From a virus, in IMG/VR virus record IMGVR_UViG_3300032296_000087, positions 1-27,600 of that record: a stretch of 27,600 bases of DNA; one strand, written 5' to 3'. The notes beneath the pieces are model-generated. The model was given only the letters and a program-made list of their open reading frames with translations. It was not told the DNA's origin and made no database searches. Positions within the stretch are counted from its first letter, which is position 1; every line of letters begins with the position of its first letter. The position numbers and the translations under genes were made by a program. Shown piece by piece: positions 1 to 24,888 of the stretch.

Positions 1-3000
1 ATTGATCAATTGAACTTTGATGTCAGCACTGCTGAGCAAACCATAGGGCATATTAAAAATTTAGCTGATGAGGCTGGGTATACAGGCAGTGGAACCATTG
101 GCGCTCGTGCTCAAAGCGGCTTCCCACCTGAAGGAATGGCTACTTCACTGATTGGCAAGGGCTGGGAAAACATGACAGACAGCTTGCTAGGCATGAAGAA
201 AGCTGGTCGCATGTTCCCTGAAACCGTAGAAACCTACCCATGGTTGGCAAAACTTGACCCAGAAACTTTGGTTTACAAGACGCAAGGCGATTTAAACAGG
301 TATATGGGCATTGATCATGTGATGGACATTTTGCGTCAAGACTTGCGCTCTGGAGCTTTGACACCTGAGAAGCTAACCAAGATGACAATGGATCAAGCCA
401 TTGAGCGCACTGCTGATTTTGACCGTGCGGCGGCTGTAAAGATGCGCCAGACTGCTATCAGAAACACTGAAGGCTTCCCTACCTACAAAGAATATCCAGA
501 AGGCTACAAGTGGATCGAGCTTGCTCCTCCAAAAGAACTGCCCGCTGGCTACAGAGTTATCCAAGATGAAATGGGCGGTGGTTATAAAGTTGTAGACGAG
601 GCTGGCAATGAAGCTGTATCAACAGCCTCTCGTCCCACAAACAACTTAGGGCATACCAACATTCCGTTTCACAAGACGCAAGAGGAAGCAATTGCTGACG
701 CATTAAAGTACGACAAGCGCTTAGAGAAAGCTCTTAAGTACGAAGGCGACACCATGGGTCATTGTGTGGGTGGTTACTGCCCTGATGTTGCAACTGGCAA
801 TACCCGCATCTTTAGCCTGCGCGACAGGCGTGGTGAGCCGCATGTAACCGTCGAAGTTGAAGGCAATCCAAGTTGGTTCACCAAAGCTGACAAAACCCCA
901 GACCCTTCTGGACAGTTTAGAAGTTTTCATGAGTTGGTTGCAGATGAAAGAGACAAACTTGCAAAAACAAAAGGTGGTTTTGGTAACACTGGCGAGTCAT
1001 ATGAGCAAACAGCAAACAGGCTTGCGCAACAATATCAACTAGAAAACACGCCAAGCATCCTTCAGATCAAAGGCAAGCAAAACTTACGCCCAATTGAAAA
1101 GTATGATCCCTTTACACGAGACTTTGTGCAAAGTGGTAACTGGTCTAATGTCAAAGACTTAGGAAACACTGGATTGATTGATCCAAGGACTTCCATGATT
1201 GTTTGGCCCAAAGGCACTTCGGCTGAACAGATTGATAGATTGTTAGGTGGCATGCAAGGTGGCACGCCAACACCAATGTACAAATCTACTGAAGATTTTT
1301 TAAAGAAAGCTGAACAAGATTTAGGTAAAAGGTATTTGACTGGGCAAGAATACGACGATTGGTTGCAAAAACAACTTGCGCCAGACACACCACCACCAGA
1401 GATGGCCCGTGGTGGCCCTGTGCACTTGAGCAAGGGAACCAAAGCCGCTGAGATCGTTGAAGCCACAGCCGAGGGCATTGCCAAGCTGTTCAACAAGTAT
1501 TCAGGCAAAGCACCAAAAGAAGAGGCCATGCCATTGGTGCTCCCAAGAGCCGCGCCCAAGTCCTCGCAAGAGATCAACGAGATTGCTGAGCGGGTAGCAC
1601 GCCAGATGATTGGTGAGCATGTCACGCCACAGGGCAAGACAGTTAACCTAGCAGGGCGCTCCAAGAAGGAAGCTGAGCGGGTCAAGCAACTACAGTTTCA
1701 GCTTACGCCCACAGGGACGGTGGCACAGGCGCAGGTGAATAAGCCGCAAATTGGGGATGTGAATGTAGCGTTCCCGGGCGACCAGTCCATCAGCGACACC
1801 ATCCTCGACACCCTCCAAGGCGAGACTATCAACTCCCTCCAGCAAGGCGGCGCTAAGTACGGACTTGGTCAAAAACACTTGATTGACCCTGAGTTCTGGA
1901 AGTCCAACATTGGCCCAGCCCAAGGCATCCAAGGTCGCATCGATGACCTCTACGCCAAGTACATGCCTGAGCGCATGGTGGGTGAGCACCTAGCGATGGG
2001 GCCAATGTCTAACAACTTTGCCATGCACTTTGCGGACGCTAACCTTAAGGCGCTGGACTGGTCAAAGCTCAAGCCAAAAGATGTCGCAATCTTTGACAGC
2101 CACATTGCTGATGGGTATGTGATCAAGAAAAAGAATAAGACGACTGGTGAGGTGACGACTAAGCATGTGAAGTTCCCAGACTGGCCCGGGTTGGCTTCCC
2201 CTGACCTCGCCTTTGAAGCCATGCAAAAGAACCCAGAAATGCGCAAGTGGTTCAACAACCGCATGAAGACTCCTGACCTCACCCAGCCCCTTGGCTTACC
2301 CAATGGGCGTGACATCGAGTACGCGATCTCAGAACCTGCTATCCGCAACCTCGAAATCAACATGACTGGTCTGAACACAGGCATCCTCAAGCCTAACGCG
2401 CCTGTCGAGCCTTTAGGTGCGCTACACAACACCTACACCCATCGAATCTTGGGCGAGGCGATTGGCCCTCGTGAGGTGCTGTCACCCTTCACCATGTCAT
2501 ACCCTGACGCAACTGCGCATGTCTTAAGGACTCAAAACCCTTCAGACTTTACAGGCACGATCCAGAAAGTGTTCCCCCACCAAGTCGTTGACCAACAGTA
2601 CCTCGACGAGATGGGCAAGTACCAAGACCGAGTCAAGCAGATCACTGGCTACAAAAAAGGTGGTGCGGTCAAGAGGTTTCAAGCTGGTGGCAAAGCCAAA
2701 GTAGCTAAAGAAGCAGTGATGTCTTTGGCTGACCTGTTTGAGTCTTACTACCCTAAAGCCGCTAAGAAGACTGTCATTGAGACTATTGAAGCGCCAGCCA
2801 TTGTGATCCCTAAAGGGATCAGCAGGGTTAAGGAAGCAGTCCGCACAGCTAAAGGTAACTATGGCGCAAAGCGTGTAGAGCGTGCCGCTGACGAGATTGC
2901 TAACCTTGAAAAGATGTACACAGACGAGGCGCTTCGCCAAGCATTCTCTGGTGACAACGCCAAAGCTATGATGACCATGAACCCAGCGGACTTTGAGAAT

Positions 3001-4035
3001 TACGCCGCTCGATTGCACTACAAGAGCAGTGTTGGCCCTAATGCGGCAAAGTTAGCCAGCCAAGGTGACCTCTCAAAGCACACAATGTCCACAGAGGACT
3101 ACCTCAAGTTTTTACGCGAATTGCCTGAAGGCTTTAACGATATCCCCTATCTGCAAATCAGCAAACAAGAGACTGGCTTGCCTTTGATGCCTTACATCAC
3201 TGGGCATGAGGGTCGCCACCGTAACCGTGCACTTGCTGGCGCTGGTCAACAGAGAAGCCTTGTGCAGTTGATGCCAAACTATGAACTGCGTGAGCCATTG
3301 CCTAGACGCACACAAGAGGAATACATTGAGGCGCTTAAAGAAGAGATGGCTATGACTGGAAACAAAGTCAAGCCAGAGAAATACTTTGACGACTCATTGC
3401 CTAAAAACCAGTTGATTGAGCGTCCACCAATTGATTTGCCTGACTTCTATGCCAAAGGTGGCGAGGTCGACATCCCTGAGATGGACTTTGACGACAGACA
3501 GTCAGCTAACCTGTACAAGTACGCCATGAAGACTTTAGGTCTGCAAGGTGAGCAGTCTGGTGCTGGAGCTGGTGCAAACATCCCTCTGGGTGGTGGCAAC
3601 CTGAACTTAGGTGTCAACTTCAACAAGCTAAGCACAATGCCTAACCAGATGATGCAGACACTTGATGCGTCCTATGGTAAAAACATCAATGGTATTGGCG
3701 TGAACGCAAATGTGTCTAAGCCAATGGATATTGAAGGTGTCTATCAAGGCATGCTAAGTGGCTCAATCCCTGTGGGTTTAGGCAGAATGATGCTAGGCTT
3801 GCAAGCCCAGAAAACGCCCTATGGCTCAGGAGTCACAGGCTACACCGCTGGTTACCAAGGTAAGGTTGGGGATGGCATGCTAAGCGCTACCATCAACCAG
3901 CCAAGAAACCGTGCCGCAGGTCGATCTGCTCAAGTGCAGTACCAAATGCCATTCGCCAAAGGTGGTGCTGTCGAGTACAATCCAGCGGAAATCGACACAA
4001 TAGCGTCATCGCTATATGAGGAACTGTATGGCTGA
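1..4035 (+). CDS. Large multidomain phage protein with PcfJ-like motif, 5' partial
   Basis: The reading frame is open to the left edge, so the true start is outside; the TTG at 10 is only the first start-like codon. Residue numbers count from that TTG. Around 248-257 there is TMGHCVGGYC followed by an LRDRRGEPHVTVEVEG stretch, the hallmark of PcfJ-like domains. At 1065-1071 there is GHEGRHR in a second conserved block of the kind found in large polyvalent phage proteins. Glycine tags recur at 467-471 (RGGPV), 883-894 (KGGAVKRFQAGG), 1149-1153 (KGGEV) and 1317-1320 (KGGA), seemingly marking segment borders. Residues about 1170-1310 are rich in Gly/Asn with alternating hydrophobics, like a beta-barrel or fibrous fold. 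It overlaps the portal gene by 8 bases (ATGGCTGA). Role unknown; possibly an injected or capsid-carried protein. The family idea is moderately secure, the function is not. Confidence 0.7.
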   Translation: MDQLNFDVSTAEQTIGHIKNLADEAGYTGSGTIGARAQSGFPPEGMATSLIGKGWENMTDSLLGMKKAGRMFPETVETYPWLAKLDPETLVYKTQGDLNRYMGIDHVMDILRQDLRSGALTPEKLTKMTMDQAIERTADFDRAAAVKMRQTAIRNTEGFPTYKEYPEGYKWIELAPPKELPAGYRVIQDEMGGGYKVVDEAGNEAVSTASRPTNNLGHTNIPFHKTQEEAIADALKYDKRLEKALKYEGDTMGHCVGGYCPDVATGNTRIFSLRDRRGEPHVTVEVEGNPSWFTKADKTPDPSGQFRSFHELVADERDKLAKTKGGFGNTGESYEQTANRLAQQYQLENTPSILQIKGKQNLRPIEKYDPFTRDFVQSGNWSNVKDLGNTGLIDPRTSMIVWPKGTSAEQIDRLLGGMQGGTPTPMYKSTEDFLKKAEQDLGKRYLTGQEYDDWLQKQLAPDTPPPEMARGGPVHLSKGTKAAEIVEATAEGIAKLFNKYSGKAPKEEAMPLVLPRAAPKSSQEINEIAERVARQMIGEHVTPQGKTVNLAGRSKKEAERVKQLQFQLTPTGTVAQAQVNKPQIGDVNVAFPGDQSISDTILDTLQGETINSLQQGGAKYGLGQKHLIDPEFWKSNIGPAQGIQGRIDDLYAKYMPERMVGEHLAMGPMSNNFAMHFADANLKALDWSKLKPKDVAIFDSHIADGYVIKKKNKTTGEVTTKHVKFPDWPGLASPDLAFEAMQKNPEMRKWFNNRMKTPDLTQPLGLPNGRDIEYAISEPAIRNLEINMTGLNTGILKPNAPVEPLGALHNTYTHRILGEAIGPREVLSPFTMSYPDATAHVLRTQNPSDFTGTIQKVFPHQVVDQQYLDEMGKYQDRVKQITGYKKGGAVKRFQAGGKAKVAKEAVMSLADLFESYYPKAAKKTVIETIEAPAIVIPKGISRVKEAVRTAKGNYGAKRVERAADEIANLEKMYTDEALRQAFSGDNAKAMMTMNPADFENYAARLHYKSSVGPNAAKLASQGDLSKHTMSTEDYLKFLRELPEGFNDIPYLQISKQETGLPLMPYITGHEGRHRNRALAGAGQQRSLVQLMPNYELREPLPRRTQEEYIEALKEEMAMTGNKVKPEKYFDDSLPKNQLIERPPIDLPDFYAKGGEVDIPEMDFDDRQSANLYKYAMKTLGLQGEQSGAGAGANIPLGGGNLNLGVNFNKLSTMPNQMMQTLDASYGKNINGIGVNANVSKPMDIEGVYQGMLSGSIPVGLGRMMLGLQAQKTPYGSGVTGYTAGYQGKVGDGMLSATINQPRNRAAGRSAQVQYQMPFAKGGAVEYNPAEIDTIASSLYEELYG

Positions 4036-6511
4036 ACAAAACAAAGACCTAACGATCCCTGAAGATAAAGGCGAAACTGTCGAAGTCGATGAGGACTTTT
4101 CAGAGGTAGAAGATACTGAAGATGGTGGTGCGATCATTCGTGAGAAAGAAAACGACGAAGACGCACAAAAGAACCAAGCCCACTTTGCGAACATTGTCGA
4201 TGAGGTAGACCAGTCTATGCTCGTCGAGGCGACTACGGACTTGCTCGAGAAGATCGACAAGGACAAGGAGGCGCGAGAGAAGCGGGACAAGCAGTACGAA
4301 GAGGGACTGCGGCGAACAGGTCTGGGCGATGATGCCCCCGGGGGTGCACAGTTCACAGGCGCAAACAAAGTCGTCCACCCCATGCTCATCGAAGCCTGCG
4401 TGGACTTCTCCGCTCGCGTCATGAAGGAGATTTTCCCCCCAAGTGGCCCAGTCAAGAGCAAGATTCAAGGCGAGAAAAACAAAGAGAAGGTCGACAAGGC
4501 AGAGCGCAAAGCCGCCTTCATGAACTGGCAAACCACTGAGCAAATGACTGAGTTCCGTGGCGAACTCGAGCAACTCAGCACCCAGCTCCCACTAGGTGGT
4601 GGTCAGTACCTCAAGATGATGTGGAACCCACAGCACCGCAGACCAGCGGCTGAGTTCATCCCCATCGACGATGTCTACCTGCCATTTGCCGCAACTAACT
4701 TCTACAGCGCTGAGCGCAAGACCCATGTCCAGTATGTAACCAAGATGGAATACATGCGCAGGGTCAAGTCTGGCATGTATCGCGATGTCGATGTGGGCAC
4801 GGCTGACGAACCTGAATACAGCAAGTCAACCCAAGCAAACGACAAAATCGAAGGTCGCAAGGAGTCCTCTTACAACGAGGATGGACTGCGCACAATCTTT
4901 GAGATTTACACCTACCTAGACTTTGGTGATGGCGTTGAGCCTTACATCTTGAGCGTGGACAAGTCGAGTGGGCTGGCGCTGTCTGTGTACCGTAACTGGG
5001 AAGCAGATGACACTTACCGCAAAGAGCTTGACTGGATTGTGGAGTTTGGATTTGTGCCATGGCGTGGTGCATACCCAATTGGACTGACGCACATGATTGG
5101 TGGCTTGAGTGGGGCGGCTACGGGCGCTTTAAGGGCGCTGATGGATAGTGCGCATATTCAGAACATTCCGACACTGCTCAAACTAAAAGGTGGCCCCGGC
5201 GGGCAGACCATCAACCTCCAGCCCACCGAAGTCGTGGAGATGGAAGGCGGCGCACTCGTGGACGATGTCCGCAAGATCGCCATGCCCATGCCATTCAACC
5301 CACCCTCTGCGGTGCTCTTCCAGTTGCTTGGCTTCTTGGTCGACGCAGGCAAGGGCGTTGTTCAGACCTCCTTTGAGAAGCTGAGCGACCAGAATGTTAA
5401 CGCCCCTGTAGGCACAACCCTCGCTCTGATTGAGCAAGGCATGGTGGTGTTCTCCTCGATTCACTCACGCCTGCACTCATCAATGGCGCGTGTGTTCAAG
5501 ATATTGCACCGCATCAATTCTGCCTATCTGACAGACGAAGATGTCGAGGCGCTTGAGTCTGGTTTGGATATTGAGCCTTCTGACTTTGATGGCCCAATGG
5601 ACATCATCCCTGTCAGCGACCCTGCGATCTTTAGCGAGACACAGAGGTTTGCACAGATTCAGGCGATCATGCAGAGGGCGGCGGTTATGCCCCAGATGTA
5701 TGACCAGCGCAATGTGGAGAAGATGTTCCTGCGCAATCTGAAGATTAGTGCGGATGAGGTGTTGCAGGCACAGCCGGGTTCCGAGGACATCGACCCCGTC
5801 AGCGAGAATGTTGCCGCCACCATGGGTCGCCCAGTCTTCGTCATCCCAAGGCAAGACCACATGGCTCACCTCAAGACCCACCTCGCGTTCTTGAAGTCAC
5901 CCCTGTTTGGTAGCAACCCAGTGATTGCACGGACATTCATTTATCCCATCGCCACGCACTTGCGCGACCACTTGCTGAACTATTACCTTGTCGAAGCTCA
6001 CAACGCTGTGGACATGGCTCAGCGCGAAGACTTGATCAAAGAAGATGCAGACGAGCAAGTCGATGTGATCTTGCAAGTCCAGCAGTTCATTGAACAACAA
6101 CTTGGTAGCTTTGGTCAGGAGTTGGCTCAGATCGACCAAGCGGCTCAGCAGTTCAAGCCACAGCCACCAATGCCACCAGACAAGTCCATGGAGATTGCGC
6201 AGATGAACGCGCAACTGCAAGGTCAGGCAATGCAACAGCGTGCTCAGATCGATCAGGCGAAACTGCAACTTGAACAGCAGAAACTTCAGATTGAAGCGCA
6301 GACAGATGCGCAGAAGAATCAGGAAGACATGCAGAAGGAGCAGATGCGCCAAATGTCAGAGAACGAACGCTTACTGGTGGAATTGCAAGCCAGAGAGCGC
6401 ATGAACACTGCGGACAACGACACAGCGATGAGGCTTGCGGCAACGGAGCTTGCGACTGGGGAGAAGTTTGCGGTGAGTACGGGCACGGGGATCAACCCCG
6501 GGGCGCGTTGA
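4028..6511 (+). CDS. Portal protein
   Basis: The portal forms the dodecameric ring at one capsid vertex through which DNA is packaged and ejected. The protein is 827 aa, long like P22-type portals. The N-terminus is acidic, then an EEGLRRTGLGDDAPGGAQF region and HPMLIEACVDFSARVMKEIFPP, the pattern seen in portals of environmental podophages. The C-terminal ~130 residues are extremely Gln-rich and helical (QQKLQIEAQ, MQKEQMRQMSENE), fitting the coiled-coil barrel of long portals. I chose ATG 4028 (MAEQNKDL) rather than 4016 because GAGGA lies at a good distance before it and it overlaps the upstream stop. Position before scaffold and capsid genes supports the call. Third positions flip from G to C at three CCCGG-type sites inside the gene (4337, 5194, 5774). 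Confidence 0.88.
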   Translation: MAEQNKDLTIPEDKGETVEVDEDFSEVEDTEDGGAIIREKENDEDAQKNQAHFANIVDEVDQSMLVEATTDLLEKIDKDKEAREKRDKQYEEGLRRTGLGDDAPGGAQFTGANKVVHPMLIEACVDFSARVMKEIFPPSGPVKSKIQGEKNKEKVDKAERKAAFMNWQTTEQMTEFRGELEQLSTQLPLGGGQYLKMMWNPQHRRPAAEFIPIDDVYLPFAATNFYSAERKTHVQYVTKMEYMRRVKSGMYRDVDVGTADEPEYSKSTQANDKIEGRKESSYNEDGLRTIFEIYTYLDFGDGVEPYILSVDKSSGLALSVYRNWEADDTYRKELDWIVEFGFVPWRGAYPIGLTHMIGGLSGAATGALRALMDSAHIQNIPTLLKLKGGPGGQTINLQPTEVVEMEGGALVDDVRKIAMPMPFNPPSAVLFQLLGFLVDAGKGVVQTSFEKLSDQNVNAPVGTTLALIEQGMVVFSSIHSRLHSSMARVFKILHRINSAYLTDEDVEALESGLDIEPSDFDGPMDIIPVSDPAIFSETQRFAQIQAIMQRAAVMPQMYDQRNVEKMFLRNLKISADEVLQAQPGSEDIDPVSENVAATMGRPVFVIPRQDHMAHLKTHLAFLKSPLFGSNPVIARTFIYPIATHLRDHLLNYYLVEAHNAVDMAQREDLIKEDADEQVDVILQVQQFIEQQLGSFGQELAQIDQAAQQFKPQPPMPPDKSMEIAQMNAQLQGQAMQQRAQIDQAKLQLEQQKLQIEAQTDAQKNQEDMQKEQMRQMSENERLLVELQARERMNTADNDTAMRLAATELATGEKFAVSTGTGINPGAR

Positions 6512-6538
6512 TTTTTAAACTTTATCAAGGAGACTCAC

Positions 6539-7261: not shown

Positions 7262-7274
7262 AAGGAGATGATTT

Positions 7275-8210: not shown

Positions 8211-8211
8211 T

Positions 8212-8243: not shown

Positions 8244-8270
8244 TTTTCCAATCGCTGAAAGGAGCGAGTA

Positions 8271-8801
8271 ATGACCGACGAACGAATGAAGAAATCCGCT
8301 GGAGAGAATCGCGTGGGGCGTGCGATGACAGATCGCGCCGTAACGGAAAATCGCGAGGTGACCGAGAATGAGCGGATTGAGATGTTCCGTCAGCAGTTTT
8401 TTCAGTCTTCACTGCCTGATCTGCCAAGAATCCCCGGCTGGCACTGTTGCTGGCTGACCACGACTAACCCTCGTGACTCTATACAAATGCGCATCCGTCT
8501 TGGATATGAGCCGCTGAAGCCCGAGGACATCCCGGGCTGGGAATACGCGACCCTCAAGACTGGCGATTGGTCTGGATTCATCGGGGTGAACGAGATGCTT
8601 GCTTTTAAGCTCCCCATGTCGCTTTATGAGGCGTACATGAAGGAAGCGCACCACGATGCGCCACTGCGTGAGGAAGAGAAATTGACCGACACCGCAGAAT
8701 TCCTCGAGCAACAAGCCCGTGCATCTAAGTCGAAGCTGTCTGTGGGAGATGGCAATCTGGAAATAGGACAACAGCGGGAAGCTCTTTTTGATCTTTCCTG
8801 A
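8271..8801 (+). CDS. Conserved phage protein of unknown function before capsid genes
   Basis: The 176-aa product follows promoter P1 with GAAAGGAG before its ATG. The N-terminus is charged and helical (MTDERMKKSAGENRVGRAM). The centre holds PGWHCCWLTTTNPRDS and RIRLGYEPLKPEDIPGWEYA, a pattern I associate with a small virion-associated family next to capsid genes in environmental podophages. The tail is acidic and Gln-rich. There is no membrane segment or enzymatic motif. A structural or assembly role is inferred from position only. It has CCCCGG and CCCGGG sites at 8432 and 8531. Confidence 0.65.
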   Translation: MTDERMKKSAGENRVGRAMTDRAVTENREVTENERIEMFRQQFFQSSLPDLPRIPGWHCCWLTTTNPRDSIQMRIRLGYEPLKPEDIPGWEYATLKTGDWSGFIGVNEMLAFKLPMSLYEAYMKEAHHDAPLREEEKLTDTAEFLEQQARASKSKLSVGDGNLEIGQQREALFDLS

Positions 8802-8830
8802 CGAAACCTTTTAATCCAATAGGAGCATCT

Positions 8831-9424
8831 ATGTCTTCGACTAGCGCACCATTTGGCTTTCGTGCTTCTTTCCACAACAGTGGTCAGATGCGCCCAAAAG
8901 CCTATGTAATCGCGAGCACCTATGCGGCTAACATTTTTAGCGGTGATCCCGTTAAGTTAACCGACAACGGTGTAATTCAACTAGGTACTTCGGACGGTAC
9001 TCGTTCTGGTACTACAGATGGCGTTTCTTTGCTGGGCATCTTCGCAGGTGTACAGTATTTGGACGCTACTGGTAAACCAACGATCTCCCCATTCTGGCCT
9101 TCTGGCACGACTGGTACAGAGATCACTGCATGGGTCTATGATGATCCTGAAACACTGTTTGATGTTCAGTACAACAACCCCTCCGCTGGCACAACCGTTC
9201 AAACGGCTGTTGGTGAAGAGTGTGATTGGACTGTGGCCTCGCCCGGTGGCTCGACCCAAACAGGTTTGTCCAACACTTACCTGACCGCCATTCAAGCCAC
9301 TTCTGGTCAATTCCAGATCACTGGCTTTGGATATGAAATCAACGACTCCCTCACTGACGCTTATGTTGTTGTGACTGTTCGTATCAACGAACACCACTAC
9401 AAAGCCGCAGTGAACTCGGTTTAA
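8831..9424 (+). CDS. Probable head decoration or minor capsid protein
   Basis: The 197-aa product lies just before the major capsid gene, with AGGAG upstream. It is rich in Thr, Gly and Ser with beta-type alternation: APFGFRASFHNSG at the start, NIFSGDPVKLTDNGVIQL and LLGIFAGVQY in the middle, and a C-terminal TDAYVVVTVRINEHHYK. Small all-beta proteins in this position commonly decorate the capsid surface in tailed phages. I recognise the general pattern from environmental phages but cannot tie it to one characterised decoration family. Confidence 0.6.
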   Translation: MSSTSAPFGFRASFHNSGQMRPKAYVIASTYAANIFSGDPVKLTDNGVIQLGTSDGTRSGTTDGVSLLGIFAGVQYLDATGKPTISPFWPSGTTGTEITAWVYDDPETLFDVQYNNPSAGTTVQTAVGEECDWTVASPGGSTQTGLSNTYLTAIQATSGQFQITGFGYEINDSLTDAYVVVTVRINEHHYKAAVNSV

Positions 9425-10490: not shown

Positions 10491-11093
10491 ATGGCAACAA
10501 CCACATTCACAGGCCCAGTAGTATCACTCAATGGTTTTGAAACTGGCACTTCATCTTCTCCCCTTGCTGTAACTACTGCGGAAAACATTAACGCCGCATA
10601 CGCAACGACATCTGCCACAACAGGCGATACTCGTTTGACTTATAGCAAACTAACATTTACATCAACAGGCTCTGGTGAAACGCTTCGCGCTTTCTCTGTG
10701 GTGACTGGAACTGGTGCGGCTACAGCGGGCACAATCAATGGTGCGCACATTTCTTGCGAAGTTAATGGCTCTTCTGCCACAATTTCTGGCGCGGCTAATG
10801 CGATTCGTGCGACTTTGGGTGGCACGGATGCGACCCCGGGCGGCACACTCGCTGTCATCCAGCTCGACACCAACTACACCGTCAACGCAACTTTGCCCGC
10901 TACAGCCTCGTTCATCCGAGTGTCTGACAGCGGCACAAACACTGGCGAAGTTCCTTTGTTGATGAACATTGAAACCGCTCCTGCGGCAACAATTGCACCA
11001 ACTGCAACATCAGTTACCACTGTGGCTAAAGCAGTCAAAGTGATGATTGGCGGCACAGTCTATTACATCCCTGCTTACGCTACATTCAGCTAA
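10491..11093 (+). CDS. Probable structural (capsid-associated) protein
   Basis: The 200-aa product starts MATTTFTGPVVSLNGF and ends GGTVYYIPAYATFS, ends shared by a group of small virion proteins I recall from environmental phages. The body is Thr/Ala/Gly/Ser-rich with beta alternation and no Cys pair, membrane span or catalytic motif. AAGGA precedes the ATG. Its place right after the capsid protein suggests a second decoration or vertex protein. Third positions switch from G/T-ending to C-ending at CCCGGG 10835. Confidence 0.6.
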   Translation: MATTTFTGPVVSLNGFETGTSSSPLAVTTAENINAAYATTSATTGDTRLTYSKLTFTSTGSGETLRAFSVVTGTGAATAGTINGAHISCEVNGSSATISGAANAIRATLGGTDATPGGTLAVIQLDTNYTVNATLPATASFIRVSDSGTNTGEVPLLMNIETAPAATIAPTATSVTTVAKAVKVMIGGTVYYIPAYATFS

Positions 11094-13142: not shown

Positions 13143-13441
13143 GCCTCTTCCTAGACCCAACAGGCGAAGCGACTTATGGCATTGCGATCTGCGCACGCTG
13201 TTCGCGCAAGTTCCTGATGGCAGAGTTGCAGAGCGACCCGAATTACCCGGGGCTAATGGTCTGCGCCGAAGATGTCGACGACTACGATCCCTACCGCCTC
13301 GCACCTCGCGCACCTGATAAAATCATATTGCCCTTTAACCGCCCTGACACTCCTGTCAACACCCGCCCTGCTGGTGTGATTCAAGAAGCAGGCGACGAGT
13401 TCTTCATCACTGAAGACGGTAATAGCTATTTGGAGTTTTAA
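13139..13441 (+). CDS. Partial zinc-ribbon phage protein, 100 aa
   Basis: Near the start is CARC (C18, C21), then NYPGLMVCAED (C42, D45), giving a Cys2...Cys-x2-Asp arrangement like small phage zinc ribbons in which the fourth ligand is replaced. The rest is acidic and Pro-rich (DDYDPYRLAPRAPD, FNRPDTPV). The start ATG overlaps the previous stop and the stop abuts the next ATG, so it is translated within the tail block. A role in head-tail joining is inferred from position only. Confidence 0.6.
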   Translation: MSLFLDPTGEATYGIAICARCSRKFLMAELQSDPNYPGLMVCAEDVDDYDPYRLAPRAPDKIILPFNRPDTPVNTRPAGVIQEAGDEFFITEDGNSYLEF

Positions 13442-15808: not shown

Positions 15809-16126
15809 ATGGCGGCTTCAGGCTTTACACCTATTCAGCTTTATCGCACGACGACAGGGGCGGCTGTGCCGTTGGCGGCTAACTTGTTGCCGGGCGAGCT
15901 TGGCTTCAACATCGCCGACACCGATATGGCGTTGTACGCTGAAAACGCATCAGGCACTGTCACCCGCATCATGAACAACCCTGCTGGCCTAAAGTACCCC
16001 ACCGCTGATGGCTCAGCAAATCAAGTCATTCAAACTGATGGCGCTGGCAACCTCTCTTTTGCAACTCCATCGGCTGGTGCGACCAAAGGTCAAGCTATTG
16101 CCTTTTCACTTATTTTCGGTCTGTAA
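15809..16126 (+). CDS. Short fibre-type structural protein, 105 aa
   Basis: The N-terminus PIQLYRTTTGAAVPLAANL, followed by LPGELGFNIADTDMALYAEN, is a common opening of phage fibre or appendage proteins. The second half has SANQVIQTDGAGNLSF, another fibre motif, and the end is a short hydrophobic stretch. It is far too short to be a full fibre and may be a base or capping piece. GAGGT precedes the ATG. A G-to-C third-position flip surrounds CCGGG at 15890. Confidence 0.6.
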   Translation: MAASGFTPIQLYRTTTGAAVPLAANLLPGELGFNIADTDMALYAENASGTVTRIMNNPAGLKYPTADGSANQVIQTDGAGNLSFATPSAGATKGQAIAFSLIFGL

Positions 16127-16135
16127 GGAACCACC

Positions 16136-16507: not shown

Positions 16508-16519
16508 TCGGAGGTTCTT

Positions 16520-17398
16520 ATGGGACTTCGATATACGGGCGGGATTCTCTCTGCTGGTTTAAACGGCATTAACTACCCTGTCACATCGGTGGAATACCTT
16601 GTCGTGGCTGGCGGGGGTGGTGGTGGTCATGCCCAAGCGGGTGGCGGTGGTGCGGGTGGTTTGTTAACTGCTACAGGGCTTTCTGTTGTTATTGGAACTG
16701 CGTACACAATAACAATTGGTGCTGGAGGTGCTGGTTCTACATCAACTGCCAATGGAGTAAATGGTTCTAATTCTGTTTTTAGCTCCATAACCGCAACGGG
16801 CGGTGGTGGTGGTGGTAGTGGTAGCGGCTCCGCTGGATCGGCTGGGGGTTCTGGTGGCGGCGGCGCGTACACTTCAGCCCCCGCTTCAAACGCAGGAGGC
16901 GCTGGTACTTCTGGACAAGGGAATGCAGGAGGCGCTGGTTTTACAAATAATTCTACTTATGCTAACGGCGGTGGCGGTGGCGGTGCAGGGAGCGTTGGCA
17001 CTAATGGAACTAATGGTATTGGCCCTGCTGGTAATGGTGGTACAGGTTTAGTTTCTAGTATTAGTGGCTCACAAATTCAATACGCTGGTGGAGGTGGGGG
17101 CGGCGCATATCAAGGGTCAACTTCAAACACACCCGGTCTTGGTGGTGGCGGTGGAGGCGGTTCAAGTTCTGCATTTACAACAGCATTTTCTGGATTAAAT
17201 AACACTGGCGGTGGCGGTGGTGGTGGAAGTGTTGTTGCTGGAGTATTTTCTGGCGGCGCAGGCGGCTCTGGCATCGTAATCCTACGCTACCCATCTTACT
17301 TAGCCCCTGCTACATCTACGACAGGCAGTCCTGAAATGGTTGTTACTGGTGGATGGCGCGTATACACATTTGTTGCATCTGGAACAATTACATTCTGA
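16520..17398 (+). CDS. Glycine-rich adhesin-like protein 1, one domain
   Basis: A 292-aa protein whose leader GGILSAGLNG precedes the domain starting VEYLVVAGGGG at residue 24. The domain alternates poly-Gly runs with short beta segments (AYTITIGAGGAG, SNSVFSSITATGGG) and holds the shared GTSGQGNAGGAG tag, then GGSGIVILRYP and a tail ending VASGTITF. Poly-Gly proteins with this look act as receptor-binding tips in T-even phages (S16 gp38), where Gly runs form type II helices. It is closely related to the gene at 19095 in both leader and tail. GGAGG precedes the ATG. Confidence 0.72.
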   Translation: MGLRYTGGILSAGLNGINYPVTSVEYLVVAGGGGGGHAQAGGGGAGGLLTATGLSVVIGTAYTITIGAGGAGSTSTANGVNGSNSVFSSITATGGGGGGSGSGSAGSAGGSGGGGAYTSAPASNAGGAGTSGQGNAGGAGFTNNSTYANGGGGGGAGSVGTNGTNGIGPAGNGGTGLVSSISGSQIQYAGGGGGGAYQGSTSNTPGLGGGGGGGSSSAFTTAFSGLNNTGGGGGGGSVVAGVFSGGAGGSGIVILRYPSYLAPATSTTGSPEMVVTGGWRVYTFVASGTITF

Positions 17399-17404
17399 GG
17401 ATAT

Positions 17405-19093
17405 ATGGCACAAGGTATTTTTACACTCAGACAAGTTAACCAAGCCATTCGTCAAGGCGCATGGTCAGCATTTAATCCACCTCAGTGGGTGGAGTATCTT
17501 TGCGTTGCTGGTGGTGGTTCTGGTGGTGGGAATATATCAACTGTCGCATTGACTGGCGGAGGCGGGGGCGGTGCTGGTGGTTTGTTGACGGGAATAAGTC
17601 CAGTGACTGCTGGTTCTTCTTACACTGTGACTGTAGGCGCTGGTGGTACAGGGTCATCTAGCGCCCAAGGAACTTCTGGTGTTAACTCTGTATTTGGTTC
17701 TATTACATCTACTGGCGGCGGTGCTGGTGGTAATCAGCCACCTTCTGGAACCACTGGTGTTACTGGATTGTCTGGCGGTTCAGGTGGTGGTGGTAGTTCT
17801 ACTAGCGCATTAGACCCCGGCCCCGCTGGTTCTGGCACTAGTGGTCAAGGTAATGCTGGCGGAACAGGAACTTACACATCTAGTGCTTATGGCGGTGGCG
17901 GTGGTGGCGGTGCTGGGACAGTTGGCTTAAATGGAACAAGTGCTATTGGGGGCAACGGCGGCGCAGGTATTGCTTCTGCTATTACAGGAACTGTAACTAC
18001 TTACGCTGGAGGTGGCGGTGCTGGCACATACACCGCTGGAACATTAGGGGTAGGCGGTGTTGGTGGCGGGGGGAATGCCGCAAGGGGTGGTACATCAGGT
18101 AGCGGAACCGTTAATACTGGCGGTGGTGGTGGTGGTAATGGTGGTACTACAACGGCAACGGCTGGCGGATCAGGCGGTTCAGGCATCGTAGTAGTCAGAT
18201 ACCCCGGCTCTGTGCAGTTTTACACTGGTGGAATAGTTTCCGCTAATGGCGGGTATGTCATACATACATTTACATCTTCTGGAACATTGGCTCCTACTAC
18301 GCCAACTCCCGCAACAACAAATGTTTTTGTGTTTACTAGTTCTACAGTATGGATTGCACCAGCGGGTGCTACGCAAGTTGAATACTTGGTTGTTGCTGGT
18401 GGTGCAGGCAGTGTTCAAGGTTTTGGTGAAGGTGCGGGTGGTGGCGGAGCAGGTGGATTCAGAACAGCCACAGGACTATCTGTAACTGCTGGAACAGCTT
18501 ACACGGTGACGGTAGGTGCTGGCGGTGCTGGCTCTACTTCTATTAGTGCTCAATACGGAGGTTCTGGAAGTAACTCTGTATTTTCTTCCATAACATCTGG
18601 AGGTGGCGGTAGCGGTGCTTCTGGGTCAAATGGAAATGGAATAGGTCAAGCTGGCGGGTCAGGCGGTGGTGGTGGGCCAATTTCAACTGGAACTGGCGGA
18701 TCAGGCAATAATCCATCAACATCACCAAGCCAAGGTAATAATGGCGGAGATAGTTTTAGCACTGGCGCGTTTGCTGGTGGTGGCGGCGGTGGAGCAGGGG
18801 CAGTTGGCGGTACTGCCACGGCAGTTCAAGCAGGTAATGGTGGAAATGGTTCTGCCGCAACCGCAAATCTTGGTGGCGCAACTTATGCAGGTGGTGGAGG
18901 TGGTGGCGCGTATTACGCAACAGTTGCTCAAGGTATGGGTGGTACTGGCGGCGGCGGTAATGGTTCTAATTACTTAGGTGGTTATGGAGCAACATCTGGA
19001 ACAGACAACACAGGTGGCGGCGGTGGCGGCGGTGCTAATGGCAGAATTCCCGGCAACGGCGGCTCTGGCATTGTGATTATTAAATGGAGTTGA
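17405..19093 (+). CDS. Glycine-rich adhesin-like protein 2, two domains
   Basis: A 562-aa protein with a different leader (MAQGIFTLRQVNQAIRQGAW). Domain A begins VEYLCVAGGGS at residue 29, and domain B begins VEYLVVAGGAG at residue 325. The linker is FTSSGTLAPTTPTPATTN, then a WIAPAGATQ strand before domain B. Domain A has GTSGQGNAGG; domain B has SPSQGNNGG instead. The end is GGSGIVIIKWS. The same leader type, two-domain plan and ending recur in the gene at 20866, so the two are paralogues. The GAGGAT ribosome site starts within the previous stop. A role in host binding is inferred. Confidence 0.72.
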   Translation: MAQGIFTLRQVNQAIRQGAWSAFNPPQWVEYLCVAGGGSGGGNISTVALTGGGGGGAGGLLTGISPVTAGSSYTVTVGAGGTGSSSAQGTSGVNSVFGSITSTGGGAGGNQPPSGTTGVTGLSGGSGGGGSSTSALDPGPAGSGTSGQGNAGGTGTYTSSAYGGGGGGGAGTVGLNGTSAIGGNGGAGIASAITGTVTTYAGGGGAGTYTAGTLGVGGVGGGGNAARGGTSGSGTVNTGGGGGGNGGTTTATAGGSGGSGIVVVRYPGSVQFYTGGIVSANGGYVIHTFTSSGTLAPTTPTPATTNVFVFTSSTVWIAPAGATQVEYLVVAGGAGSVQGFGEGAGGGGAGGFRTATGLSVTAGTAYTVTVGAGGAGSTSISAQYGGSGSNSVFSSITSGGGGSGASGSNGNGIGQAGGSGGGGGPISTGTGGSGNNPSTSPSQGNNGGDSFSTGAFAGGGGGGAGAVGGTATAVQAGNGGNGSAATANLGGATYAGGGGGGAYYATVAQGMGGTGGGGNGSNYLGGYGATSGTDNTGGGGGGGANGRIPGNGGSGIVIIKWS

Positions 19094-19094
19094 A

Positions 19095-19997
19095 ATGAGT
19101 CAAACTTTATTAGGTGGATTCCTTTCCGCAACCTTTAACCCACTGTCTGGTACAACTACCGCAGTTGAATATTTAGTGGTTGCTGGTGGAGGTGGTGCTG
19201 GCGGTGGTGGCGGAGGAGCAGGTGGTCTTTTGACTGCGGCTGGTTTTTCTGTTGCGGCTGGTTCTGCTTTAACTGTGACCGTGGGTGCTGGTGGTGCTGG
19301 TGGTACTTATGCAAGTGGCGCAGTTAGTAATGGAGTCAGTGGTAGCAATTCTGTTTTTAGTTCTATTACCTCTATTGGTGGTGGTTATGGTGGTGGCCCA
19401 AATAGCACTACTAACGGCGCTTCTGGCGGATCAGGTGGTGGCGGTAGCCAAGATGGTAGCGGGAGCGGATCAACTGGAGGCGCTGGAACATCTGGTCAAG
19501 GCAATGCTGGTGGTGGCTCTGGTGGGGTTTACCCGCCCGGTTACTTTGCCGCAGGCGGTGGTGGTGGCGCAGGCTCTGTTGGTGGAAATTCATTAGTAGT
19601 TTCTTCTGGCTCTTTGGGTGCTGGTGGCAATGGTGGAACTGGGTTTTGCTCAACCATTACGGGTGCAAGAGTCTTTTACGCTGGAGGTGGCGGTGGTGGT
19701 TCTAGTACAAACACATCCACTTTAACTACTGGTGGACTTGGTGGAGGCGGTGGCGGGGGTAATGGTGGTTTAGCTCCTTCGCAGTCTGGCATTTCTGGTA
19801 CTGCAAATACAGGTGGAGGTGGCGGTGGTGGAGAATTTGAATCATCTTTTGGCGGTAATGGTGGTTCTGGAATTGTCATCATTCGTTATCCTCAATCTTT
19901 ATTACCACCTACTTCCACAACAGGAAGCCCTCAGATAAACTACTCTGATGGGTATCAGATTTACACTTGGACATCTTCTGGCACTATTACTTTTTAA
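19095..19997 (+). CDS. Glycine-rich adhesin-like protein 3, one domain
   Basis: A 300-aa paralogue of the gene at 16520: the leader GGFLSATFNP matches GGILSAGLNG, the domain starts VEYLVVAGGGG at residue 24, it keeps GTSGQGNAGGGSG, and the tail (TSTTGSPQINYSDGYQIY, ending SSGTITF) lines up with TSTTGSPEMVVTGGWRVY. Its start follows the previous stop by one base, with a TGGAGT ribosome site inside the upstream gene. The order one-domain then two-domain is repeated here, apart from the two genes inserted after it. Confidence 0.72.
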   Translation: MSQTLLGGFLSATFNPLSGTTTAVEYLVVAGGGGAGGGGGGAGGLLTAAGFSVAAGSALTVTVGAGGAGGTYASGAVSNGVSGSNSVFSSITSIGGGYGGGPNSTTNGASGGSGGGGSQDGSGSGSTGGAGTSGQGNAGGGSGGVYPPGYFAAGGGGGAGSVGGNSLVVSSGSLGAGGNGGTGFCSTITGARVFYAGGGGGGSSTNTSTLTTGGLGGGGGGGNGGLAPSQSGISGTANTGGGGGGGEFESSFGGNGGSGIVIIRYPQSLLPPTSTTGSPQINYSDGYQIYTWTSSGTITF

Positions 19998-20006
19998 GGA
20001 GCAAAC

Positions 20007-20357
20007 ATGAGCCATTTCGCTAAAGTAGAAAACGGTGTAGTGACGCAAGTCATCGTCATCGAAAAAGCAGTTCTTGACCTTGGTCACTGGGGCGACCCAG
20101 CATCTTGGGTTCAAACTTCATACAACACTTCTGGTGGAGTTCACTCGCAAGGTGGTACGCCACTGCGTAAGAATTACGCGGGTGTTGGAATGTTGTATGA
20201 CGGTGTAGGTTTCTATGCCCCACAGCCTTTTCCAAGCTGGACTAAAAACGAAGCCACATACCATTGGGAAGCCCCAACGCCTATGCCCGTAGTTGAAGGT
20301 AAGCGCTTTAGCTGGGATGAGCCAACATTGTCATGGGTTGAAATTACAATCGCGTAA
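20007..20357 (+). CDS. Small fibre-associated phage protein, 116 aa
   Basis: AAGGAG precedes the ATG. The product starts MSHFAKVENGVVTQVIVIE and contains DPASWVQTSYNTSGGVH, PLRKNYAGVGMLYDGVGFY and a Trp-rich end (PFPSWTKNEATYHWEAP, SWDEPTLSWVEI). I know this pattern as a short protein recurring beside fibre genes in cyanophages and other environmental phages; its job is not established. It separates two glycine-rich genes. Its stop is followed one base later by the homing endonuclease ATG. Confidence 0.65.
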   Translation: MSHFAKVENGVVTQVIVIEKAVLDLGHWGDPASWVQTSYNTSGGVHSQGGTPLRKNYAGVGMLYDGVGFYAPQPFPSWTKNEATYHWEAPTPMPVVEGKRFSWDEPTLSWVEITIA

Positions 20358-20358
20358 T

Positions 20359-20856
20359 ATGCCAAGAAAAGCGTTGCCATTGCCGTCAATAGAATTGCTT
20401 CATTCTCTGTTTGTTATAGAGGATGGCGTTCTATTGAACAAAGTTGACCGCAAAATGGTCAAAGCTGGTCAACGATCTGGTTGTGAAAAAGATGGATACA
20501 TCTGGGTCAAAGTTAATAGTCAGCGGTATTCTGCTCACCGTTTAATTTTCCTAATGCACCACGGCTATTGCCCTGAATATGTTGACCACGTTGATGGCAA
20601 CGGTTTAAACAACCATATTGAAAATTTACGCCCAGCTACGTTATCTCAAAACAAAGCAAACCAATCCGTATACAGCAATAATATGTCTGGTGTAAAAGGC
20701 GTTTATTGGTGTCAACCCAAGAACTCATGGGTTGCCCAAATTGGTTTCAATAATCGGCGCAGAACATTAGGCACGTTTGCAACCAAAGATTTGGCGGCAG
20801 AATTTATTGCTTTAGTTCGTGAAGAATTACACGGGCAGTTTGCTCGTCACGCATAA
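20359..20856 (+). CDS. HNH homing endonuclease with AP2 DNA-binding domain
   Basis: HNH/AP2 enzymes cut DNA and spread their own gene by gap repair. The 165-aa product has an HNH core: AHRLIFLMHHGYCPEYVDHV, with DHVDGNGLNN and NLRPATLSQNKANQS following. Then comes an AP2-type domain, SGVKGVYWCQPKNSWVAQIG with NRRRTLGTFATKDLAAEFI. I chose ATG 20359 rather than 20293, which would overlap the previous gene by 65 bases. There is no visible ribosome site. The gene stands alone between adhesin-related genes and interrupts no reading frame I can see, so it is a free-standing mobile gene; codon use is more A/T-rich than its neighbours. Confidence 0.82.
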   Translation: MPRKALPLPSIELLHSLFVIEDGVLLNKVDRKMVKAGQRSGCEKDGYIWVKVNSQRYSAHRLIFLMHHGYCPEYVDHVDGNGLNNHIENLRPATLSQNKANQSVYSNNMSGVKGVYWCQPKNSWVAQIGFNNRRRTLGTFATKDLAAEFIALVREELHGQFARHA

Positions 20857-20865
20857 GGAATTATC

Positions 20866-22590
20866 ATGCCCCCTCAATACAGTGGAATGTGGACGCTAAG
20901 TCAAGTAAGTCAAGCTGTAAAAGACTTGAATTGGACGGGCATTCCTCCGTCTGTTGTTGAGTATCTAATTGTTGCTGGTGGTGGCGGCGGCGGTAGTGAC
21001 GGCTCAGGAATTCAACAGACGGGCGGCGGTGCTGGTGCGGGTGGATTGCTTGCTGGTTACGCTGGCCTCACATTAGGCGCTTCTTACTTTGTAACTGTAG
21101 GCGCTGGCGGCACTGCTTCATTGGGAGCCACATCTACTAATGGTGGAAACTCTGTTTTTGATGCCACATCTTCTGCGGCTACTACAGGGCGTATTGTTGC
21201 AACTGGCGGTGGCTACGGCGGAAGATACGGACAAGTTGGTAACTCTGGTGGTTCTGGGGGCGGGGCAGGTTCTACTGGTTTGACTGGTTCTGCGGGAACT
21301 TCTGGCCAAGGAAATGCCGGTGGAAATTCCAATACTGGCGGTTATCCAAACCTTGCTTCAGGCGGCGGTGGGGGAGCAGGGACTATTGGGCTAAATGCAA
21401 ACAATGGTAACAATGCTGGCGGTAACGGCGGTGCGGGTATTGCAAGTTCAATTAGCGGGGCAGTAACTGCATACGCAGGCGGTGGTGGCGGTGGAAACTA
21501 TTCCGCTGGAACTGCTGGCGCATCGGTTGGTGGTGTTGGCGGTGGCGGTGCAGGTGGTATTTATTCTGGAAGTGTTGACCCAATAGCTGGGACAGCAAAT
21601 ACTGGTGGCGGTGGCGGAGGCGGATCAAACGGCAGGGCTGGAGCTACAGGCGGTTCAGGCGTTGTCATTCTTCGCTACCCCGGCTCAATTCAATATTTTA
21701 CTGGTGGCACAGTAACTTTAAGTGGCATTAACCCAAATGGTTCTTTTGTTGTCCACACATTTACTTCTTCAGGTACTTTAGCGCCAACTACACCTATAAA
21801 TTTAGCAACAATAGCTCCAGCAAATACAACAATTTTTTATTCATCAGGCGTTTGGGTTGCCCCTGTTGGCGCTACACAGGTTGAATACTTGGTGGTTGCT
21901 GGTGGTGGTGGTGGGGGCGGTAGACGAGGCGGTGGTGGTGGCGCTGGTGGATACCGTACAGCCACAGGTTTATCGGTTACTGCGGGAACTGCTTACGTAG
22001 TTACGATTGGTGCTGGAGGAAATGGCGGCAATGGTGGTGGCGGTGCGGCTGTAACTGGAACAAGCGGTGCTAATTCAATATTTAGTTCTATTACTGCAAC
22101 TGGCGGCGGCGGCGGCGGCGGCGATGGAAACGCAACATACGGCGTTGGGTTAAATGGCGGTTCTGGTGGCGGAGGTTCTGGCTATGCTGGAGGCTCTGCA
22201 TCTCCAAGCGGTCAAGGCAATAATGGTGGCGCAGGAAGCAACTCACCATCAAATTATGGTGGCGGTGGCGGTGGTGGAGCATCTGCCGTAGGTGTGGCTG
22301 GAACAACAACTACTGGCGGTAATGGAGGCGCTGGTACTGCATCTTCTTTGTCAGGAGCGTCTACTACTTATGCAGGTGGTGGCGGTGGCGGTACTTATCA
22401 AGGCGGGACTGCTGGTACTGGAGGTGCTGGTGGTGGCGGTGGCGGTGGGACTGGTGGAACGGATAACAACGGAACTGCTGGAACTTTTAACACAGGTGGG
22501 GGCGGTGGAGGCGGTTCTATTCAGTCGGATACATCCAACAGAGGTGGCGGTAATGGCGGCTCTGGCATCGTAATCATCAAGTGGAGCTAA
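20866..22590 (+). CDS. Glycine-rich adhesin-like protein 4, two domains
   Basis: A 574-aa paralogue of the gene at 17405: the leader WTLSQVSQAVKDLNW matches FTLRQVNQAIRQGAW, domain A starts VEYLIVAGGGG at residue 31, the linker FTSSGTLAPTTPINL leads to WVAPVGATQ, domain B starts VEYLVVAGGGG at residue 339, and it ends GGSGIVIIKWS. Domain A carries GTSGQGNAGG; domain B carries SPSGQGNNGG, as in the paralogue. AAGGA precedes the ATG. It is the last of the glycine-rich set, directly before the lysis genes. Confidence 0.72.
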   Translation: MPPQYSGMWTLSQVSQAVKDLNWTGIPPSVVEYLIVAGGGGGGSDGSGIQQTGGGAGAGGLLAGYAGLTLGASYFVTVGAGGTASLGATSTNGGNSVFDATSSAATTGRIVATGGGYGGRYGQVGNSGGSGGGAGSTGLTGSAGTSGQGNAGGNSNTGGYPNLASGGGGGAGTIGLNANNGNNAGGNGGAGIASSISGAVTAYAGGGGGGNYSAGTAGASVGGVGGGGAGGIYSGSVDPIAGTANTGGGGGGGSNGRAGATGGSGVVILRYPGSIQYFTGGTVTLSGINPNGSFVVHTFTSSGTLAPTTPINLATIAPANTTIFYSSGVWVAPVGATQVEYLVVAGGGGGGGRRGGGGGAGGYRTATGLSVTAGTAYVVTIGAGGNGGNGGGGAAVTGTSGANSIFSSITATGGGGGGGDGNATYGVGLNGGSGGGGSGYAGGSASPSGQGNNGGAGSNSPSNYGGGGGGGASAVGVAGTTTTGGNGGAGTASSLSGASTTYAGGGGGGTYQGGTAGTGGAGGGGGGGTGGTDNNGTAGTFNTGGGGGGGSIQSDTSNRGGGNGGSGIVIIKWS

Positions 22591-22592
22591 CC

Positions 22593-23212: not shown

Positions 23213-23213
23213 T

Positions 23214-23957: not shown

Positions 23958-23959
23958 CT

Positions 23960-24451
23960 ATGTTTGAAGTATTTGGTGGAATATTAGGTGGGGCGTTAGG
24001 TGGAATTTTTCGCTTGGCTCCTGAAGTTCTTAAGTTCTTTGACAAAAAGAACGAACGGTCGCATGAAATGCTCATGTTTGCCCGCCAGTGTGAACTGGAG
24101 CAAATCAGAGGTCAAATGAAGCTGGCTGAGATTGGGGCACAACGGGAGGCGGCAGTTGATGTAGGGGTCATGGATGCCTTTAATTCTGCAATTGAGCAAC
24201 AAGCATCGATGGTCAAAGCCGCAGGTGGCTGGGCGGCTAGTTTGTCTGCATCTGTTCGTCCTGTCGTAACTTACTGGATTCTTTTGGTCTGGTCTTTTGT
24301 GCATCTGTGGTTTGGTTGGAACTCATGGATTGCAGGTGCGGCTCCTATGGAAGTATTTAAGATGATGATGTCGCCTGACTTCTCAGCACTCTTGGCTGGA
24401 ACAATTAACTATTGGTTCCTCGATAGAACTCTGAAACAGCGTGGGCTATGA
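23960..24451 (+). CDS. Holin, GTA-type 3-TM family
   Basis: Holins permeabilise the inner membrane so the lysozyme reaches the cell wall. The 163-aa product matches the 'holin of 3 TMs' family seen in gene-transfer agents and phages: a Gly-rich hydrophobic start (FGGILGGALGGIF), a charged helical stretch with cytosolic look (residues ~25-90), then SVRPVVTYWILLVWSFVHLW with a second span ending in TINYWFLDRTLKQRG, where RPxxTYW and W/YWFxDRT are characteristic. GAGGAG precedes the ATG. Its stop overlaps the lysozyme start (ATGA), so both are made together. Confidence 0.78.
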   Translation: MFEVFGGILGGALGGIFRLAPEVLKFFDKKNERSHEMLMFARQCELEQIRGQMKLAEIGAQREAAVDVGVMDAFNSAIEQQASMVKAAGGWAASLSASVRPVVTYWILLVWSFVHLWFGWNSWIAGAAPMEVFKMMMSPDFSALLAGTINYWFLDRTLKQRGL

Positions 24452-24888
24452 ACTTAGAACTAGCCGCCGCACTGTGCAGGCAGTTTGAGGGCTACAGAGC
24501 CAAGCCGTACCTTTGTCCAGCTAATGTGGCTACGATTGGGTATGGCTCTACCTATTACGCTGATGGGAAAAAGGTAACTTTACAAGACCCTCCCATGGAC
24601 GAGCCAGCGGCTAGGGCGTTGTTGATGTTTGAGTTGGAGCACACCTATTTGCCGGGTGTCCTGCGGAATTGCCCCATTCTTGCCACCGACGAACGCAAAT
24701 GCAACGCCATTGTTGATTTTTGCTATAACTTAGGCGTTGGCAGGCTCCAAACTTCCACCCTAAAGCGTAAGATAAACGCTCAGGACTGGGAAGAGGCTAA
24801 AGAACAACTCAAGCTCTGGAACAAGGGCGGCGGTAAAGTTCTGGCAGGCTTAAAAAAGCGCAGAGATGCAGAATGTCTGCTTATGTAA
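24448..24888 (+). CDS. Endolysin, GH24 lysozyme with Cys in place of catalytic Asp
   Basis: It would hydrolyse the peptidoglycan MurNAc-GlcNAc bond. The 146-aa protein has FEGYRAKPYLCPANVATIGY: E14, C23 and T29 sit at the spacing of T4 lysozyme's E11, D20 and T26, with Cys replacing Asp. A D20C substitution is known to keep T4 lysozyme active, and YLCPA is common in phage relatives, so the enzyme is likely functional. CYNLGVGRLQTSTL and LWNKGGGKVLAGLKKRRDAE further match GH24. There is no signal peptide, so release depends on the holin. It overlaps the holin by four bases. CCGGG at 24652 shows the G-to-C third-position flip. Confidence 0.88.
   Translation: MNLELAAALCRQFEGYRAKPYLCPANVATIGYGSTYYADGKKVTLQDPPMDEPAARALLMFELEHTYLPGVLRNCPILATDERKCNAIVDFCYNLGVGRLQTSTLKRKINAQDWEEAKEQLKLWNKGGGKVLAGLKKRRDAECLLM

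Follow-up and report, generated by a model that had tools for sequence, protein, structure and literature searches.

Silent bases switch strand preference at CCGG sites locked in by Pro-Gly codons in aquatic phages: a possible footprint of repaired restriction breaks

Restriction-site avoidance, as described for the genomes of phages and of prokaryotes (e.g., PMC4687349, PMC4176335), is recognized by the absence of sites. The phages considered here resemble those cases in the loss of palindromic motifs, which is complete for CCWGG and extends to CCGG wherever the code allows, and in a reduction even of Pro-Gly, the dipeptide that forces such sites, but differ from them in that the sites that cannot be removed bear a strand-switching footprint in silent bases over at least 100 bp. 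No report of a footprint of this kind, be it from phages or from prokaryotes, was found in a search, not a full one, of the open-access literature. At human meiotic double-strand breaks (PMC7615360) there is, as here, mirror symmetry about the break and loss of C and A on the strand of the resected 3' tail. Those breaks, however, are marked by rare mutations over about 2 kb with no asymmetry less than 100 bp from the centre, whereas the phage footprint is a strong shift in composition that peaks within 60 bp and is accompanied by lowered silent diversity. Chi and the GT-rich sequences preferred by RecA (PMC3763553, RecA and TGG repeats) likewise have a strand rich in G and poor in C to the 5' side of the break end; in contrast, the phage flanks contained no Chi-like word, TGG was not clearly in excess (97 versus 90 +- 6), and the skew was compositional. 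Finally, in mismatch resolution during single-strand annealing (PMC9001825), processing of the break decides which strand contributes the winning base, and the present phage clade encodes an ERF annealase; that system, however, is from mouse cells, where the type of mismatch was of little influence, whereas the model proposed below needs a base-specific preference.

The DNA analysed (the window) is an entire phage record of 27,600 bases with its main reading frames on the + strand and with Pfam matches to a capsid protein, a lysozyme, an SU10-type adaptor and an HNH/AP2 gene. It comes from a group of water-borne phages with a portal protein similar to those found in Caulobacter phage RW and in Roseobacter, Pelagibacter and spring-water phages. 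The closest long relative (G001; 45,448 bases) has a portal protein 98% identical to that of the window, and a distant phage (G005; 55 kb) was identified with 48% portal identity. Matching of genomes to a host yielded only distant relatives, in metagenome-assembled genomes. Features of the window are listed in Table 1.

Table 1. Portal gene and residual CCSGG sites of the window, with counts of G and C at third codon positions within 60 bp on each side of the sites
Feature	Position	Strand	Left	Right	Remarks
Portal (head-to-tail connector) gene	4016..6511	+			tblastn matches in 18 GenBank phages, in several of which the match is annotated as head to tail connecting or portal protein; holds four residual sites
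Residual CCCGGG (Pro-Gly), strong flip	1773..1778	.	G12 C0	G2 C16	top in-gene D peak, 1.03
Residual CCCGGG (Pro-Gly), clear left flip	2185..2190	.	G11 C2	G6 C7	
Residual CCCGGG, portal gene	4337..4342	.	G9 C4	G3 C11	D 0.62-0.87 in ten clade sequences
Residual CCCGG, portal gene	5195..5199	.	G7 C3	G6 C11	clade D 0.36-0.61
Residual CCGGG, portal gene	5774..5778	.	G13 C2	G3 C12	natural experiment
Residual CCCGGG, 3' end of portal gene	6497..6502	.	G12 C3		coding left flank only
Residual CCCGG, weak	8433..8437	.	G8 C2	G5 C8	one of close pair
Residual CCCGGG, weak	8531..8536	.	G6 C5	G7 C8	one of close pair
Residual CCCGG, weak	9242..9246	.	G5 C4	G3 C8	
Residual CCCGGG, mainly right flip	10835..10840	.	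G6 C3	G2 C14	
Residual CCCGG, flip	12792..12796	.	G8 C4	G3 C11	clade D 0.36-0.87
Residual CCCGGG, flip	13115..13120	.	G12 C3	G3 C10	D 0.55-1.0 in 19 clade rows
Residual CCCGGG, mainly right flip	13246..13251	.	G9 C7	G2 C12	
Residual CCGGG, flip	15890..15894	.	G11 C2	G4 C10	clade D 0.66-1.03
Residual CCGGG, flip	24652..24656	.	G12 C4	G2 C10	
Six CCCGG sites (17132, 17816, 18203, 19049, 19536, 21679) in Gly-rich tail genes, no flip	17132..21683	+	G8 C32 (total)	G6 C26 (total)	

Third codon positions in the window were G-rich to the left and C-rich to the right of CCGG-type sites, and this flip is both real and strong. It was expressed as D, i.e., (G3-C3)left - (G3-C3)right, over third codon positions. 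The preliminary description of this DNA had given hand counts, for 20 codons per side at seven sites, of 67 G and 16 C on the left and 24 G and 85 C on the right, and a recount returned practically the same figures (left G67 C16, right G23 C86). For the 11 CCGGG sites of the window, counts within 60 bp per side were G111 and C40 on the left and G35 and C110 on the right, compared with genome-wide fractions of 0.20 for G3 and 0.26 for C3. When k-mers were ranked by D, a comparison that the same description had suggested, CCGG was 1st of 255, CCGGG 1st of 992 and CCCGGG 1st of 2425. Across all 21 CCSGG sites D was 0.42, and across the 15 outside the Gly-rich genes it was 0.63, whereas the corresponding maxima over 1000 synonymous shuffles were 0.14 and 0.19 and none of about 27,000 circular shifts applied to the sites gave a D above 0.25. 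The 14 sites outside the earlier hand count had a D of 0.23, which was matched by 0.16% of shifts. In a de novo scan, 11 of the 12 top in-gene D peaks (0.5 to 1.03) lay no more than 18 bp from a CCSGG, the sole exception being a peak at 11047, near a gene end.

Weak flips at 8433, 8531 and 9242 and absence of a flip from the Gly-rich genes, both noted by eye in the preliminary description, were equally apparent in the counts. The first two of these sites are only 98 bp apart, so that the stretch between them is at once the right flank of one and the left flank of the other and is subject to opposing demands. The long Gly-rich tail proteins (17405-22590) are built with repeated modules, and their genes, the CCCGG sites of which were without flip, were probably acquired recently. 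An HNH endonuclease of homing type with an AP2 domain (20377-20856; Pfam HNH_3, 2e-13) is encoded amid these tail genes. Gene independence of the flip, as claimed earlier, is supported: the flip behaves as a DNA-level process that is palindrome-centred and strand-symmetric, with strand asymmetry mirrored about the site. The argument given for this independence, that all genes are on one strand, is void since the flip pattern is its own reverse complement. The centre of the pattern, which had been taken to be a CCCGGG-type site, is indeed a palindrome, but what is effective is CCSGG read in the Pro-Gly frame.

That frame reflects a conflict between motif avoidance and the genetic code that had gone unremarked in the preliminary description, i.e., absence of CCWGG, near-absence of CCGG outside Pro-Gly codons and the resulting lock. 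No CCWGG was seen where about 65 (window), 107 (G001) and 120 (G005) were expected, and CCGG in genomes positive for the flip was almost wholly within CCSGG and otherwise near-absent. Residual sites in the listed relatives were in-frame CCC GGN or CCG GGN, i.e., Pro-Gly, and all strong-flip sites encoded this dipeptide. Since CCN GGN always holds either CCWGG or CCGG, residual CCGG is locked in by the amino acids. Homologous sites exchanged CCC GG and CCG GG silently and remained CCSGG; exceptions among the clade rows were one CCA GGT (L004) and one position with CCT GGT (three rows). The dipeptide itself was depleted, with observed-to-expected ratios of 0.46 in fully avoiding loci, 0.73 where only CCWGG was avoided and 0.86 where neither motif was avoided. 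From this avoidance, the hosts of these phages almost certainly cut both CCWGG and CCGG.

The dependence of the flip on double avoidance was evident from a factorial comparison of 494 loci (5.8 Mb), in which Pro-Gly sites were classed by CCWGG and CCGG avoidance of their genome and skew was determined at 9-60 bp after duplicate flanks were taken out. Thus, G-skew at Pro-Gly sites of genomes that avoided both motifs, most of which sites came from one clade, was 0.311 +- 0.018 for CCC GG (n = 125) and 0.296 +- 0.028 for CCG GG (n = 75), whereas it was 0.00-0.03 in genomes that avoided neither motif (n = 2454), only CCGG (n = 120) or only CCWGG (n = 434). Intermediate values (0.16 and 0.07; n = 56) were noted where avoidance of CCWGG was combined with partial avoidance of CCGG. 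The flip is thus a property of unremovable sites of an avoided motif rather than of Pro-Gly, of the CCGG sequence or of avoidance as such. An effect of Pro-Gly at the level of protein, codon or RNA, or else chance, would agree with the Pro-Gly coding of every strong site but is highly improbable, given a skew of only 0.01-0.02 at the 2454 Pro-Gly sites of non-avoiding loci, no flip in homologous codons elsewhere, no hairpin complementarity, and shifts and shuffles that never attained the observed D. Across the 494 loci, full avoidance of CCWGG was common in aquatic phages, often without avoidance of CCGG, and Pro-Gly was then written as CCSGG and was flipless.

The flip was present in all close relatives and was significant within single genomes, 20 of 22 sites being positive in G001 (p = 5e-8) and 23 of 27 in the distant and independent lineage of G005 (p = 3e-5). 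Two further loci (L063, L076) were positive without reaching significance and another (L060) was weak, while L066 avoided both motifs and had 14 Pro-Gly CCSGG sites, yet showed a G-skew of 0.00. Four annotated GenBank relatives tolerated CCGG and had no flip. In a scan of the 494 loci with all 4-mer, NNnNN and 6-mer palindromes, only the CCGG type passed, and the flip at residual GGCC (also under-represented), CGCG, GCSGC, GGNCC and others was near zero. Runs of GGGG and TGNGG with a G-left, C-right third-base signal were seen in L314 and L315; these are non-palindromic and failed the palindrome scan.

Loss and gain of individual sites provided a second line of evidence. As predicted in the preliminary description for relatives without sites, homologous codons of relatives with 60-75% identity, which lack double avoidance, gave a D of about 0.05. 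Within the clade, L003 has Ala-Gly (GCT GGG) in place of the site at window position 5774, and its D at this position was 0.30, compared with 0.82-1.13 in members that bear the site; third bases of its right flank were C3 and T11 as opposed to C11-13 and T2-5 in the latter. The flank has reverted where L003 lost the site, i.e., the flip decays on site loss. Loss of the site at window position 13246 in L267 (His-Gly) was accompanied by a flip that is still there, as a recent loss would be expected to show. In G001, silent change has given rise to a new site (GCC GGG at 2083) that had no flip (D -0.46), nor was there a clear flip at a Pro-Gly exclusive to L005.

The shape of the footprint was that of a graded shift in composition. 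At 15-30 bp to the left of sites, G made up 0.87 of purine-ending codons (about 0.50 far off) and C made up 0.17 of pyrimidine-ending codons (0.54 far off), while in four-fold codons G was 0.59 and C 0.07; the right side was the mirror image. When both sides were folded onto the strand that lies 5' of the site, G at purine-ending codons fell from 0.79 at 12-60 bp through 0.71, 0.62 and 0.60 to 0.52 at over 700 bp, so that the G component dwindled over several hundred bp. Two-fold pyrimidine codons within 60 bp favoured T over C on the same strand, an effect that was gone beyond about 60 bp. Of the earlier account of the pattern as A to G on one side and T to C on the other, the G component therefore stands, but within 60 bp the skew is one of G (and T) versus A and C; the same G+T versus A+C form was found in G005. 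Excess of G before every next base indicates that no dinucleotide effect is involved. A hairpin or inverted repeat was considered and rejected, complementarity between a site's own arms being 0.376 compared with 0.384 +- 0.008 between arms of different sites, as was a less structured 3' tail, folding being no weaker than in a matched null. Flanks of G005 sites folded more strongly than third-base-shuffled sequences on both strands (tail strand -11.1 versus -9.2 +- 0.35 kcal/mol, for site flanks only), a feature absent from G001.

The reading that we favour, at a probability of about 0.45, is that recurrent restriction breaks, 5'-to-3' resection and recombinational repair left the footprint. 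Hosts would cut both CCWGG and CCGG, which the phage avoids, and the handful of CCGG sites that the Pro-Gly code locks in would be cut repeatedly by the putative host enzyme. Resection of the cut ends would run 5'-to-3', so that the 3' tail would consist of the top strand to the left of the site and of the bottom strand to its right, and the break would be mended by recombination with a second copy of the phage. As such cycles recurred, silent variants with G (and, close by, T over C) on the tail strand would be fixed preferentially, owing either to better rescue of such tails or to mismatch resolution in repair that favours them, and the outcome would be a sequence rich in G ahead of each site and rich in C behind it, fading over several hundred bases. 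A break with 5'-to-3' resection had been suggested in the preliminary description, and the polarity fits, the G-rich strand being the would-be 3' tail on each side.

A wider form of that earlier suggestion relies on mutation only: the 3' tail exposed by cutting would be mutated at A and C, by deamination or error-prone refilling, and G and T would gather without any selection. Its sign matches the C>N and A>N asymmetry on the resected strand at human meiotic breaks (PMC7615360), A and C are both depleted near sites, the flip fades after site loss and is free of sequence motif or context dependence, and parsimony indicated that A-to-G change per A within 150 bp was raised about 2.5-fold (20 of 49 versus 19 of 119, p = 0.001), as had been predicted for substitutions near sites. 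In a two-state model (our own estimate), however, attaining a G of about 0.8 by A-to-G mutation alone would raise silent divergence to about 1.6-1.7 times background, whereas biased fixation would lower it to about 0.6 times. Silent diversity near sites was in fact lowered, near-to-far ratios in the same genes being 0.80 (0.64-1.06) where codons end in a purine, 0.44 (0.15-0.76) where they end in a pyrimidine and 0.86 (0.61-1.16) where they are four-fold degenerate. Moreover, G-to-A change per G, which mutation alone should leave constant, was 0.14 within 60 bp compared with 0.24 elsewhere (12 of 84 versus 61 of 256; p = 0.07, not significant alone). Shifts in both directions of change together with lowered silent diversity favour selection or biased conversion over pure mutation, and plain A-to-G change on an exposed strand, as first suggested, is at odds with the preference for T over C, the lower silent diversity and the seemingly reduced G-to-A change. 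The evidence for biased fixation, from nine genes, is moderate, and mutation may contribute as well, the data being limited; as the sole cause, mutation is unlikely.

Among explanations that do not involve a cycle of breaks and repair, strand composition might alter how readily residual sites are recognized, cleaved or bound by protein, such that protected contexts are selected. Flipping of residual sites of the avoided motif only, and a flank that looks constrained, are as this explanation would have them, but a reach of more than 100 bp with smooth decay to several hundred far exceeds the stretch of DNA that a restriction enzyme contacts, neither a motif nor arm complementarity was found, and strand polarity is left unexplained, which makes the explanation improbable. 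Control of a Chi-like kind, in which the G-rich flanks would hold a recombination hotspot sequence of the host that halts an end-degrading nuclease near the cut, appears less probable still. In Chi (RecBCD, AddAB), the G-rich strand is the one with its 3' end at the break, and the orientation of the flanks is right for it, but among G-rich k-mers 4 to 7 bases long none was clearly above a composition-matched null, GGGG was below the null, and the known Chi sequences GCTGGTGG, GCTGGCGC, AGCGG and GCGCGTG were not consistently in excess. Pause motifs of lambda exonuclease likewise gave none clearly above the level set by base composition; only generic G-rich words were found, with GGCG slightly above null.

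With respect to the enzymes that break and repair would call for, lambda exonuclease resects 5'-to-3' and acts together with an annealase that pairs the 3' tail (PMC7496540). G001 encodes a YqaJ exonuclease (1.5e-27) and an ERF annealase (9e-19) in a region to which the window does not extend. Pairs of this kind carry out 5'-to-3' resection and the annealing of 3' tails, so that the two genes fit the proposed mechanism, for which they may or may not be required. Presence of YqaJ and ERF as the switch for the flip was rejected, the pair being confined to G001 among records that are mostly fragments and G005 having the flip with no match to either; G005 instead had matches to a PD-(D/E)XK nuclease, RusA and a RecA-dependent nuclease. 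A phage C5 methylase was not found in nine records. Points against the break-and-repair reading are the flipless L066, the absence of a flip at GGCC despite its under-representation (0.35 of expected), G005 without YqaJ or ERF, the negative results for Chi and pause motifs and for a less structured tail, and a signal that comes mostly from one clade.

Restriction is usually viewed as all-or-nothing for a phage. The chances are about even that non-lethal, repaired restriction breaks occur so often in phage populations in nature that they imprint a strand-switching footprint on silent bases at code-locked sites and that this footprint alone reveals the motifs cut, the reach of resection and the bias of repair. 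If so, cut genomes would be rescued often enough to shape evolution, silent-site composition would document how phage DNA is restricted and its ends are processed in nature, with no need for a cultured host, and the footprint would be a prokaryotic counterpart of the strand asymmetry at meiotic breaks. These phages also show how two avoided motifs that collide at one dipeptide drive amino-acid and silent-site evolution alike.

Palindromes other than CCWGG and CCGG were depleted as well. Thus, ACGT was nearly absent, with 4 in the window compared with about 57 expected and 0 in both G001 and G002, GCWGC did not occur within G001 flanks, and GGCC and CGCG were at 0.3-0.4 and 0.4-0.6 of expectation, respectively, in the window, G001 and G002. 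This stacking of avoided palindromes suggests the presence of several restriction systems in the hosts.
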